From the NCBI GenBank assembly GCA_028382005.1, contig JAOESH010000003.1, positions 1-64,000 on the forward strand: 64,000 nucleotides of DNA, read 5' to 3'. Shown here piece by piece: positions 1 to 8,979 of the stretch. Each line of letters starts with the position of its first letter. Position 1 is the first letter of the stretch. Under the pieces are notes generated by a model, which saw nothing but the letters and a program-made list of their open reading frames with translations, made no database searches and had not been told where the DNA came from. Source of the DNA: Pseudomonadota bacterium (GTDB lineage Bacteria; Pseudomonadota; Alphaproteobacteria; Puniceispirillales; Marisalimonadaceae). The translations under genes were made by a program, and so were the position numbers.

Positions 1-117
1 AGATCCAGCATTTGATGTGTTTGATGCTGCTGAACTACTGACCACCTTCTGAGATGCTGTTTCACAAGCTGAAAGTAAAGATACAGCTCCAATCATAGCA
101 ATAATTTTCATTTTCAT
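1..117 (-). CDS. pal: Pal, peptidoglycan-associated outer-membrane lipoprotein (N-terminal fragment)
   Basis: Only the first 39 codons are inside the window. They encode a lipoprotein signal peptide: a basic start (MKMK), a hydrophobic stretch and an LLSAC lipobox whose Cys would be lipidated, then a Ser/Ala/Asn-rich linker typical of Pal ahead of its OmpA-like domain. A GGAG-type ribosome site sits just upstream of the ATG. The gene lies 109 bp downstream of tolB in the usual tolQRAB-pal order, which is the main reason for the name. Pal anchors the outer membrane to peptidoglycan and binds TolB. The OmpA domain is outside the window, so the identity rests on the lipobox and position. Confidence 0.8.
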   Translation of the reverse strand, partial: MKMKIIAMIGAVSLLSACETASQKVVSSSAASNTSNAGS

Positions 118-226
118 TTTACTCTCCTTAAAAACTAAACAATTGATAAATATTTATTTTATTAAAATTTTTTAGACCCTAACTCAATTAACTTTAAGTT
201 TCAACTTTTTTAAAAAAATCTAACTT

Positions 227-1579
227 TTAATTTGGTAACAAAGGTGACCAAGCAGGATCTGACCCATCACTTGGAGTTATAATTCTTGTTTCCCTAAAAC
301 CTGTAATGTCAATTTTATATAAATTAACACTAGAACTCCTACCATTGTCAACAGGTTCATTTTGTTTAAAATACATCAAAACCCTTCCATTGGGAGCCCA
401 AGTTGGACCTTCAACTAAATAACCTTGTGCTAATAATCTTTCATTTGAACCGTCTGGTGACATAACACCTATATAAAATTTCTTATTCAACATTTTTGTG
501 AATGCTATTAATTCTCCTTTTGGAGCCCAAACTGGTGTAGCATATCTCCCTTTTCCAAAAGATATTCTTTTTACTTTGTTACCTTTTGAATCCATAATAT
601 AAATTTGCTGAGAGCCACCACGGTCTGAGTTAAAAATAACTCTATTTCCATCTGGTGAAAAGCTAGGTGAGGTATCTATTGAACTATTATTTGTTAATCT
701 AATAACCTTTTGATTATTTAAATTCATAGTATAAATATCAGTTATACCTTTAGTCGCTAAACTCATTATAATTTTATCGCCTGATGGTGAAAACCTTGGC
801 GCAAATGTCATACCAGGAAACGATCCTAACAATTCTTGTTGTCCAGTTTCTAAATTGAAAATATAAACTCTAGGCTCATTTTTAAAATATGCTAGGTATG
901 TTATTTCTTGCGTAGTTGGTGAAAATCTTGGAGTTAGAACCAAAAAACTTCCATCAGTTAAATATTGATGGTTTTCACCATCTTGATCCATAATAGCCAG
1001 TCTTTTTAAACGGTTATTCTGAGGCCCAGACTCTGCAACATAAACTATTCTTGTATCAAAATAACCACTATCTCCAGAAAGTCTTTCGAAGATTTCGTCC
1101 GATATTATATGTGCAACTCTTCTCCATGCATTTGAGTTAACACTTAATCTTAGACCTATAAGGTCTGTTTCAGCAACAACGTCCCATAACCTAAATTCTA
1201 CTTCTACTTGTTGTTCGTTTATACTTTTAACAGAACCAGTAATTAAAGCCTTTATACCTAAGGGAGACCAGTCAGTAAAATTAGGTCTAACTGATGGACT
1301 AGTAGGAGGAGCTATAAAAGCAGCACTATCAACTGCTTTAAACTGACCAGAACCAACTAGGTTATTAGAAACAACTTCTGAAATCTGTCTACCTATTTCA
1401 TTGGCTTTACCATCTTGTCCAGTAAAGTCTGCAATAGCAATAGGAAGTGGTTCCACCTGTCCAGAACTAATTTTAATTCTAAGATCTTGAGCCCAAACTT
1501 GATTTATTAATAAAGGAAGGATTAAAATTAAAACCTTAAAAACTATGAAGTTTAATTTTTTATTCAAAATGAGCCTCAT
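227..1579 (-). CDS. tolB: TolB, periplasmic beta-propeller of the Tol-Pal system
   Basis: 450 residues. An N-terminal signal peptide (about residues 1-30, ending near VWAQ) directs the protein to the periplasm. The N-terminal domain (about 35-170) carries the ALITGSV-type strand of TolB. The C-terminal half is a six-bladed propeller with repeated SPxG/APxG blade turns such as FSPSGDK, FSPDGNR, WAPKGEL and WAPNGRV. TolB shuttles between Pal and TolA during outer-membrane constriction at division. Length matches the family. It lies between tolA (75 bp gap) and pal and is probably part of the same operon. No clear ribosome site precedes this ATG, but a later start would remove the signal peptide. 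Confidence 0.95.
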
Positions 1580-5293: not shown

Positions 5294-5965
5294 TCACCTG
5301 GACAATTCTTTAAGGGCTAGAGGTACAATATTATTAACAGTAAACTCTTTATTTTTTTTATTAATACTAAAATCTTTTTTAATTTTCATTATTACAGAAA
5401 AAACTTCACTCCTGCCAAATCCAAGATTGACTAATGCAGAAATGATATCCTCCACAATCATTGTATAATCCTCGATTACTTCATCATTTTCTAGATTTAG
5501 CTTATCTTGGAATTTATCAGATTTTTGATTATAATTTATATCTTGCGATTTATTAGTGTTAAGAACAGAAACTTTATCCAACAATTCAGTAGTTATTCTT
5601 CCTGCAACCTTAGGACCAACACCATCTGCTCTGGAAATCATAGCTTTATCTCCAGAAGAAATTGCTAAGGTTATCTCATCAACAGAAAGAGTTGATAAAA
5701 TAGAAATAGCGGCTCTAGGCCCTACACCTTGAACAGATTGAAGTAATCTAAAAAAATTCTGATCATTAGACGTTGCAAAACCGTACATTATAATTTTATC
5801 ATCTTTAATCTGAAGATCAGTGAACAAAGACAAATTTGAACCTAAATCACCTAATGATGAAATTAATTTTGATGAAACATGTAAAAAATATCCAACGTTA
5901 TTTACTTCTAAAACAATGTCAGATTTACCTATCGATGTTAATGTGCCTTTTAAAGATGCTATCAT
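5294..5965 (-). CDS. ruvA: RuvA, Holliday-junction-binding subunit
   Basis: 223 residues. The OB-fold domain I (about 1-63) begins MIASLKGTL. Domain II has the helix-hairpin-helix motifs VQGVGPRAA and ADGVGPKVA, which bind the junction backbone. A Ser/Asn/Asp-rich linker leads to domain III (about 165-223; ALVNLGF), which contacts RuvB. RuvA tetramers hold the junction open for RuvB. The leader is unusual: the start codon overlaps the stop of a four-codon mini-ORF, preceded by an 8-bp tandem array at 5983-6022. The only Shine-Dalgarno-like sequence at normal distance from the ATG is a weak GGTAG, so start efficiency may depend on this leader. Confidence 0.97.
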   Translation of the reverse strand: MIASLKGTLTSIGKSDIVLEVNNVGYFLHVSSKLISSLGDLGSNLSLFTDLQIKDDKIIMYGFATSNDQNFFRLLQSVQGVGPRAAISILSTLSVDEITLAISSGDKAMISRADGVGPKVAGRITTELLDKVSVLNTNKSQDINYNQKSDKFQDKLNLENDEVIEDYTMIVEDIISALVNLGFGRSEVFSVIMKIKKDFSINKKNKEFTVNNIVPLALKELSR

Positions 5966-5979
5966 TAAAAATCTACCAT
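5966..5979 (-). other. Four-codon mini-ORF (M-V-D-F) overlapping the ruvA start
   Basis: On the minus strand an ATG at 5979 opens ATG GTA GAT TTT TAA, and the last A of the stop is the first A of the ruvA ATG (TAATG overlap). An AGGA motif supplied by the last unit of the tandem array lies 7 nt before this ATG, a good distance, whereas the same AGGA is about 20 nt from the ruvA ATG. This could couple ruvA translation to a mini-ORF, but such a short ORF can also arise by chance. The coordinates given exclude the shared base. Confidence 0.3.
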
Positions 5980-5982
5980 TCT

Positions 5983-6022
5983 ATAATCCTGTAATCCTAT
6001 AATCCTATAATCCTATAATCCT
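5983..6022. repeat. 8-bp tandem repeat, five units, between ruvC and ruvA
   Basis: The plus strand reads ATAATCCT five times head to tail, with one substitution in the second unit (GTAATCCT), followed by a degenerate ATAATTAT that contains the ruvC stop. In the ruvCAB mRNA each unit reads AGGATTAT and so contains AGGA, a partial Shine-Dalgarno motif. The array fills most of the 61-bp ruvC-ruvA gap. Short tandem arrays of this kind often change copy number by slipped pairing; any effect on ruvA expression is inference. Confidence 0.95.
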
Positions 6023-6026
6023 ATAA

Positions 6027-6578
6027 TTATGTTTTATTTTTTTCTTTTAATAAAGCCTTTGTAATAGCTTCATCTAAACTATTATTTGCTCCTTGTAAAT
6101 TTGAAGTCATGTTGTCATTCTTGATATATTGAGCCGAAATTGCAATTGCCAATGCATCTGCGCTATCTTCATTCTTAGGAATAATATGTAATAATTTTTC
6201 TATCATTGATTTGATTTGTTGTTTTGATGCTGAACCATAACCTGTAATAGTTTTTTTAACTAATTTTGGTGGGATTTCCGTAATATGCAAGCCTGATTCT
6301 GCTAGAACTGACATTGAAACTCCCCTTGCCATTCCTAGCTTTAAACTAGATCCAGCTCCAAAACCAACAAAGATCTGTTCTATAGCTGATTTATTTGGAA
6401 TATATTTTGAAATTATTTCTAACAATTGTTTCTTTATAAAAAACAACCTTTCACCATCAGGCATTGATGTTGATGGTGATATTCTTCCATCACCTATGTA
6501 ATTTAAATTATTATTTTTGAATTCAACAATTCCCCATCCAGTATGTCTCAATCCAGGATCAATACCAATAATACGCAA
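6027..6578 (-). CDS. ruvC: RuvC, Holliday-junction resolvase
   Basis: 183 residues with an RNase H fold. The first acidic residue is in RIIGIDPGLRHTGWG (Asp7). The others are in SAIEQIFVG and near the C-terminal end of the catalytic core (NEDSADALAIAI). RuvC cuts junctions symmetrically after RuvAB branch migration. The start is a TTG at 6578, because the usual N-terminus M-R-I-I-G-I-D-P-G begins there and no ATG lies nearby. It starts 14 bp after yebC stops, and its 3' end runs into the 8-bp tandem array. The C-terminal tail after about residue 160 is poorly conserved. Confidence 0.96.
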   Translation of the reverse strand: MRIIGIDPGLRHTGWGIVEFKNNNLNYIGDGRISPSTSMPDGERLFFIKKQLLEIISKYIPNKSAIEQIFVGFGAGSSLKLGMARGVSMSVLAESGLHITEIPPKLVKKTITGYGSASKQQIKSMIEKLLHIIPKNEDSADALAIAISAQYIKNDNMTSNLQGANNSLDEAITKALLKEKNKT

Positions 6579-8207: not shown

Positions 8208-8795
8208 TTAATCTACTCTTGAGAGTATTTCTTTTTCAGTCACTATGAAGTCTAACTTTTGGTCGTGACTTTCATATGGTATACTTTTAGTTTCTTGTTC
8301 GCTATAAGCAAGACCAATTGCAAAAAAATTTTTCTCTTTTCTATAAAAATTTTGTCTTAAACTAAATATAGATTTGTCATAATAACCACCTCCATATCCG
8401 AGCCTATTCAATTTTCTATCGAACATTAACATAGGCACAATAATAATTTGAGGCAAAACAGTTTTATTTGTAAGAGCCGGTTCATAATTTCCTAAACAAC
8501 CTTTTTGAAGATTTTCTTTTTTATCCCATTTTTTAAAAACCATTACCTTTGTGTTAATTTGAACAACTGGTAAAGCAGTTGTTATATGTTTAGTTTTTAA
8601 ATATTTTGAAAATCCTAAAGGTGATATTTCGTTAAAAATGGGATAGTATAAACCAATTACCTTTATATTGTTGTCTATAGAAAGAACTTTATCCAAACAG
8701 GAATTAATATACTTTAAAAAAGTATTTTCACTTTCAGAATTTAGAGTGATTAATGCTCTTTTTTTTTTAGCCTTAATTCTGAGACTACTTTTCAT
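8208..8795 (-). CDS. ygfA: 5-formyltetrahydrofolate cyclo-ligase
   Basis: 195 residues from the ATG at 8795 (MKSSLRIKAKKKRALI). The conserved tail LNRLGYGGGYYDKSI (ATP/folate loop) and the C-terminal region E-S-H-D-Q-K-L-D-F-I are family hallmarks. The enzyme converts 5-formyl-THF to 5,10-methenyl-THF using ATP. An upstream in-frame ATG at 8843 was not chosen, because the extra 16 codons run through the 3' part of the 6S RNA and match no family N-terminus. Linkage with ssrS and zapA upstream is a classic proteobacterial arrangement. Confidence 0.93.
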   Translation of the reverse strand: MKSSLRIKAKKKRALITLNSESENTFLKYINSCLDKVLSIDNNIKVIGLYYPIFNEISPLGFSKYLKTKHITTALPVVQINTKVMVFKKWDKKENLQKGCLGNYEPALTNKTVLPQIIIVPMLMFDRKLNRLGYGGGYYDKSIFSLRQNFYRKEKNFFAIGLAYSEQETKSIPYESHDQKLDFIVTEKEILSRVD

Positions 8796-8820
8796 TTTAA
8801 TTACTCTAGCATAAATAACG

Positions 8821-8968
8821 AAAGCCAAATGATCGTCGGACAAGTTATCCTATGTTGCCTGTTAAACAGGTGGGCACCATTTACTTTAACCACGGCTAAA
8901 ACAGTGACGGTTCCCTTAAGATACTTATGGCCCCAAGGATTAAAGTTCCTGACAAAAAATTCAGCTTT
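8821..8968 (-). ncRNA. ssrS: 6S RNA (ssrS), RNA polymerase-binding regulator
   Basis: The segment lies between zapA and the 5-FTHF cyclo-ligase gene, the standard 6S RNA position in proteobacteria. On the minus strand it folds as expected by eye. The ends pair AAAGC (8968-8964) with GCTTT (8825-8821). Further in, ATCCT pairs with AGGAT and GGGGCCAT pairs with ATGGTGCCC with one bulge. These enclose a weakly paired central region and a terminal hairpin closed by AACC/GGTT. The 3' strand carries a small CCTGTT/AACAGG hairpin. The length of about 148 nt suits an alphaproteobacterial 6S RNA. The ends are estimates from pairing, not mapped. Confidence 0.78.
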
Positions 8969-8979
8969 CATTAATTATT

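Follow-up and report, generated by a model that had tools for sequence, protein, structure and literature searches.

An eight-nucleotide tandem array with Shine-Dalgarno-like cores between ruvC and ruvA of an alphaproteobacterium

Anatomy of the ruvC–ruvA spacer

The window analysed here is the whole stretch of 64,000 nt at positions 1 to 64,000 of contig JAOESH010000003.1. In it the genes ruvC and ruvA lie on the minus strand, separated by a spacer that holds a tandem array of 8-nt units and, running into the ruvA start, a four-codon open reading frame (the mini-ORF). RuvAB acts on recombination junctions and stalled forks. The features of the locus are as follows.

6027..6578, minus strand: ruvC, 183 aa, Pfam RuvC; its TAA (6029-6027) lies directly before the array
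5966..6026, minus strand: ruvC–ruvA spacer of 61 nt, compared with 21-33 nt in 27 genomes of the same genus
6015-6022, minus strand: array unit 1, AGGATTAT
6007-6014, minus strand: array unit 2, AGGATTAT
5999-6006, minus strand: array unit 3, AGGATTAT
5991-5998, minus strand: array unit 4, AGGATTAC
5983-5990, minus strand: array unit 5, the last, AGGATTAT
5987..5990, minus strand: last AGGA, Shine-Dalgarno-like, as read from the sequence; 7 nt from the mini-ORF ATG and 21 nt from the ruvA ATG
5965..5979, minus strand: mini-ORF M-V-D-F-stop (ATG GTA GAT TTT TAA), starting at 5979
5294..5965, minus strand: ruvA, 223 aa, ATG at 5965; Pfam RuvA_N, HHH_5 and RuvA_C

The five units occupy 5983-6022, the fourth differing from the others by its final C, and each contributes one AGGA. 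These coordinates bear out the initial annotation, which had described five 8-nt repeats with one substituted unit and an AGGA every 8 nt; the range it gave, 5966-6022, takes in the array together with the mini-ORF, the array proper being 5983-6022. Tandem Repeats Finder places the array at 5981-6027 with a period of 8, 5.9 copies and 94% matches, and its score of 87 is the top one among the program's 61 rows in the window, compared with a maximum of 76 and a mean of maxima of 55.4 in 100 dinucleotide-preserving shuffles of the whole window. With head-to-tail copies beyond chance, the array is a simple sequence repeat, or microsatellite (unit of 1-11 nt). The two-unit pattern (AGGATTATx2, up to 3 mismatches) matches 8 times in the window against 2.14 expected, a number that 0 of 100 shuffles reach, and six of the eight matches overlap the array. 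Across 458 kb of the genome (the window plus 20 further stretches, out of 1.81 Mb), three arrays of longer period outscore this one, and among perfect arrays with a period of 5-12 only two reach four units, the ruvC–ruvA array and a heptamer.

Between the last unit and the mini-ORF ATG lies AGA, and the final A of the mini-ORF TAA (5965) is also the A of the ruvA ATG, giving TAATG. Both the 7 nt that separate the last AGGA (5990-5987) from the ATG at 5979 and the four-codon M-V-D-F frame whose stop overlaps the ruvA start had been pointed out before, and both are present in the sequence. The start of ruvA itself, ATGAT(A/C)GC, is common to the relatives' loci displayed. An alternative ruvA start was considered and rejected: the frame is closed by a TAG just upstream of the mini-ORF, and reading by eye showed no in-frame ATG, GTG or TTG between that TAG and 5965.

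Neither the RNA leader (5926-6045, fold z-score 0.13) nor the DNA of the spacer region (5966-6030, fold z-score 0.24) has unusual structure, and over the window the Rfam matches at gathering scores were limited to a tRNA and a 6S RNA. The 6S RNA lies at 8818-8970 on the minus strand (57.4 bits against a gathering score of 46.4), adjoining an ORF at 8208-8843 that we take to be 5-formyltetrahydrofolate cyclo-ligase-like. On the other side of the locus, the contig ends 5.1-5.6 kb beyond ruvA in 17 of the 29 same-genus genomes with ruvA, the window's own included. The break point in the nine cases inspected (window 1-230, G000:C33, and L128-L135) falls either between tolB and pal or early in pal, and in six genomes that cross the spot, inspection by eye showed tolB, a pal-like lipoprotein and more ORFs but nothing unusual, inverted repeats having been looked at in three of them.

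Shine-Dalgarno use and the route to ruvA

The Shine-Dalgarno (SD) motifs AGGA, GGAG or GAGG occur at -16..-3 of 30.9% of 375 ORFs in the 458 kb surveyed, as against 3.2%, 4.5% and 3.2% in three control windows further upstream; the ORFs were of at least 150 aa and their first ATG was taken as the start, so that some starts are wrong. The 3′ end of 16S rRNA carries CACCTCC (anti-SD CCTCC) in 10 of 10 loci from relatives; a search of the window's own genome found no 16S gene. In a genome that uses SD sites to this extent, it is reasonable to regard the AGGA units as SD-like, as the initial annotation had done. Motifs lie most often 5-9 nt from the ATG, with 129 at these five distances and 1 at 21 nt, so that the last unit is at a good distance from the mini-ORF start (7 nt) and at a poor one from that of ruvA (21 nt). 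The site of ruvA itself is weak, again as first described, its best anti-SD duplex within -20..-3 being -2.9 kcal/mol; the mini-ORF has a duplex of -4.1 kcal/mol.

The mini-ORF thus combines an SD at working distance (7 nt) with a stop that overlaps the downstream start, two marks of a coupled short upstream ORF. The most likely function of the last unit is that of an ordinary SD, serving the ATG at 5979. A ribosome would initiate at the mini-ORF by way of the last AGGA, make M-V-D-F, stop at the TAA and reinitiate on the overlapping ATG of ruvA, and the upstream units of the array would add little to translation. Initiation at the mini-ORF followed by reinitiation at TAATG is, we infer, the likeliest path to RuvA. 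Such an arrangement is no general device in the surveyed genome, since SD-led mini-ORFs whose stop overlaps the next start precede only 3 of 372 genes, where 200 shuffles that keep the letters and not the dinucleotides give 1.5 on average.

Ribosome sites before ruvA vary among relatives. In 27 same-genus genomes the anti-SD duplex ranges from -2.2 to -5.3 kcal/mol; two sites are weaker than that of the window (L008, -2.2; L028, -2.7) and two are about equal to it (L012 and L027, -3.0), and none of the four genomes has the array. The weak site of ruvA is thus not a gap that an array must fill, because relatives with weaker sites have none. In six of the 27 (L003, L004, L005, L007, L009 and L010), an out-of-frame ATG at -38, within the last codons of ruvC, opens a frame of 12-13 codons that has no SD before its ATG and ends with a stop overlapping the ruvA start (TAATG in three, ATGA in three). 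An overlapping stop at the start of ruvA is therefore not confined to the window. Delivery of ribosomes by such a stop could be an older trait of the ruvA start, bearing in mind that the six genomes are related and that an open frame of this length is unsurprising.

Relatives, other arrays and the origin of the repeat

Matches to ruvA were found in 51 of 61 genomes, including the window's own and 28 of 36 same-genus relatives; the other eight gave no match, and the genomes are incomplete. The spacer could be read in 27 relatives, one locus (L029, from G003) having been dropped as its ruvA is cut by the contig start; L030, in which ruvC and ruvA overlap, lies outside the genus. The spacer measures 21-33 nt in these 27 genomes and 29-33 nt in 24 of them, and the 61 nt of the window exceed all 27. 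The array is absent from every one of the 27 spacers, as is the M-V-D-F mini-ORF, so that the conservation expected of a coupled upstream ORF was not seen among them. With the patterns used, the array was found in one of the 61 genomes, and four exact AGGA at period 8 occur at one place in its own genome and in none of 60 relatives. A dispersed repeat was considered and rejected: the 16-mer, with at most one mismatch, is found once each in 3 of 60 relatives, compared with 7 matches in 6 genomes for a reversed-letter control, and is therefore not enriched.

The closest relative by RuvA (G030, 82% identical, listed with 5% contamination) has the spacer TTAAAGGATCATAAAATTTCAA, which contains one unit-like AGGATCAT whose AGGA stands 14 nt from the ruvA ATG; among the 27 genomes, only this one has an octamer within one mismatch of the unit. 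The SD-like motif in that spacer (L002, G030:C130) is AAAGGA, and the own-genome survey has 0 motifs at a distance of 14 nt. Alignment of the window's locus with that of G030 shows one long gap of 39 nt (61 versus 22 nt), located at the array, between flanks of 86% identity (on the ruvC side 469 of 544 aligned letters agree, and in ruvA 565 of 661). When copy number is compared across related genomes, as the initial annotation had suggested, it does differ between species, with five units here, one (within one mismatch) in G030 and none in 26 other members of the genus; the array itself was found, with the patterns used, in none of the 60 relatives.

These comparisons lead us to a reading that we hold to be somewhat probable, namely that the array is a lineage-specific, microsatellite-like expansion by slippage of one SD-bearing unit, that its copy number has no selected role, and that its last unit serves the mini-ORF and, by reinitiation, ruvA. 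Both slippage as the cause and the lack of a selected role for copy number are what we infer from the comparisons above. An ancestral short spacer would have carried a single SD-bearing stretch, as G030 still does (AAAGGATCAT); replication slippage would have multiplied an 8-nt stretch to five units in the lineage of the window; and about 7 nt more would have appeared beside the array, bringing the new ATG. The change probably ran from short to long, as the other genus members read also have short spacers, and the ruvA ribosome site may have shifted in this lineage before the array grew. The likeness of AGGATCAT in G030 to the unit extends over 7 of 8 letters and could be a coincidence around a required SD rather than homology. 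The identity of four of the five units means that the expansion is recent or that something keeps the units alike. Two features count against a neutral expansion: there is an SD core within the unit, with the final copy ideally placed for the ATG, which neutral expansion need not give, and the mini-ORF with its TAATG fits a functional layout.

Arrays elsewhere serve as natural controls. A second short array in the same genome, CATAATT x4 (L115 8045-8072, G000:C17), is also intercistronic, with its first unit over the stop codon of the upstream gene; it lies about 20 nt before the next start, and the SD, AAGGA at 8 nt from the ATG, lies outside the repeat. Short spacer arrays therefore arise in this genome regardless of SD content. 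A search of 40 relatives, 24 of which belong to the same genus, did not find the exact three-unit pattern of CATAATT.

Three exact units of AGGATTAT (AGGATTATx3) occur in 13 stretches of other genomes, eight of them Bacteroidota by record title, in a scan that may leave out records near the window's own genome. Counting ORFs of at least 90 aa, a same-strand start follows within 200 nt in four of the 13 (at 59, 155, 182 and 189 nt) and within 50 nt in none, where L043, with only 57 nt downstream, cannot be judged. At L042, purine-rich units of imperfect match continue almost as far as the start of a 23S_rRNA_IVP gene, which weakens the use of the 13 stretches as a clean control. On balance, intergenic expansion of the octamer need not involve a part in translation. 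Small genes follow three of the 13 foreign arrays (L042 4536-4978; L037 4187-4873, minus strand; L033 5906-6507); two of them encode 23S_rRNA_IVP (PF05635) and one PDDEXK_3 (PF13366), and these gene families may tend to have octamer arrays. Among the literature matches listed for four-helix-bundle or GxxExxY genes with repeats, nothing was on the subject by title. In viral contigs, the two-copy pattern is present in 45 stretches.

The role of copy number and comparison with known systems

The initial annotation had proposed that a slippable array could act as a ribosome-loading region whose copy number tunes RuvA. In such a region, tandem AGGA sites would raise the local concentration of 30S subunits, and slippage would change the number of sites and with it the output of RuvA. 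We consider this unlikely, although an AGGA every 8 nt, a leader without unusual structure and a last unit well placed in an SD-using genome all agree with it, as do the imperfect units that reach the 23S_rRNA_IVP gene at L042 and the gor octamer array of Moraxella catarrhalis, which differs between strains (PMC7302503). The claim of tuning found no footing in the comparisons: the array was found in one of 61 genomes, all 27 same-genus spacers are without it, and added upstream units leave the spacing of the last SD unchanged, so that nothing but crowding or a standby effect could register how many units there are. Moreover, the two relatives with weaker ruvA sites (L008 and L028) manage without an array, and three exact units stand within 50 nt of a same-strand ORF start in none of the 13 foreign stretches, with the reservation noted for L042. 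In one experimental study, translation rates were equal with two, three or four standby modules in the 5′ UTR (PMC3936740), although these were structured modules and not SD repeats, a caution rather than a refutation, and no variation of the gor array was seen within either of two Moraxella strains tested (PMC7302503). Tuning of RuvA by copy number is possible, with no positive evidence found for it, and the fuller scheme in which tandem SD units feed a four-codon coupling ORF and slippage sets RuvA output in small steps seems to us quite improbable. If true, a ribosome-loading microsatellite would tie the dose of a repair gene to a site prone to replication errors, and a copy number that mattered would make the array a rare repeat tuning the translation, not the transcription, of a housekeeping repair gene.

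At the other extreme, the expansion may be inert and the mini-ORF coincidental, ruvA being initiated directly from its weak site or by ribosomes coming from ruvC, with both array and mini-ORF irrelevant. We regard this as possible if doubtful. It would fit the scarcity of SD-led mini-ORFs in the genome (3 of 372, against the shuffled 1.5) and the four relatives with ruvA sites weaker than that of the window (two) or within 0.1 kcal/mol of it (two), which are without an ATG-started ORF overlapping the ruvA start. Yet the 61-nt spacer is longer than those of all 27 relatives, so coupling to ruvC should be weaker here; the mini-ORF has the stronger SD (-4.1 versus -2.9 kcal/mol); and the TAATG makes reinitiation likely if the mini-ORF is translated at all. 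On the plus strand, the same letters give TATAAT, a -10 hexamer, every 8 bp with one gap (five perfect copies, at 5982, 5998, 6006, 6014 and 6022), which might form an array of promoters sending antisense RNA into ruvC, but no hexamer has a -35-like partner at the threshold of the scan and the plus strand of the window has 91 copies of TATAAT in any case, which makes the idea highly improbable. A CsrA-type protein that binds the repeated GGA and blocks ribosome entry deserves almost no credence: five GGA motifs do lie 8 nt apart in the leader, but CsrA (PF02599) is found in 0 of 61 genomes, the window's own (81% complete) included, and in 0 of 23 near-complete ones, while control genomes gave matches in 3 of 14, and a CsrA-regulated leader was rejected on this ground. 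The array is real, a lineage-private short tandem repeat for which an ordinary part in initiation through its last unit is plausible. If inert, it would be a small, clear example of a spacer growing by slippage yet keeping a working ribosome site, with the mini-ORF taking over delivery.

Searches of the open-access literature for tandem SD sequences, and for simple repeats with ribosome sites, returned no description that we recognised of an array of SD units among the matches listed, and none was found there of octamer repeats with ruvA. The phase-variable repeats of uspA2 (AGAT; PMC7302503) and nadA (PMC2791445) share with the ruvA array a slippable tandem repeat upstream of a gene, but they are reported to have copy-number variants and to act on the transcription of surface proteins, whereas the ruvA array is known from one genome of its species.

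The closest published likenesses in form are the TAACTGA repeats of marine Beggiatoaceae, short tandem direct repeats directly upstream of start codons, some of them of presumably essential genes, for which a role in translation is proposed rather than shown in that report; between two Cyanothece strains, indels in the repeat are mostly in 7-nt steps (PMC4679880). Like these, the ruvA array is a short intergenic tandem repeat just upstream of a start codon. In the TAACTGA system, however, a single genome has 169 sets, which share one unit with little likeness to an SD (PMC4679880), while the ruvA repeat is one array with an SD core, and its unit, AGGATTAT, at a single place in its own genome and in 0 of 60 relatives, places it outside that family. 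Moraxella catarrhalis has octamer and heptamer tracts upstream of housekeeping genes, among them, 25 bp ahead of gor, the octamer GACTGTTT, of which five genomes carry 2-17 copies (PMC7302503). The gor tract and the ruvA array are alike in having an 8-nt unit some tens of bases upstream of a gene for a non-surface product, and gor copies differ between strains; they differ in that the gor unit is without an SD core and, in the strains described, without variation within a strain (PMC7302503), and in that the ruvA array comes from a single genome of its species.

The mini-ORF has a different set of counterparts. A short upstream ORF can deliver ribosomes by overlap with the next start, TAATG being a known coupling geometry (PMC12548453), and the bicistronic design is an engineered form of such an overlap-coupled ORF (PMC5995908). 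Unlike an established ORF of this kind, the M-V-D-F mini-ORF is found in 0 of 27 relatives, and nothing therefore indicates that selection made or keeps it. In its layout, the likeness is close: at ruvA, as in the coupled upstream ORFs described, an SD-led mini-ORF precedes the main gene and its stop overlaps the main start, with a spacing of -1 nt (PMC12548453, PMC5995908).
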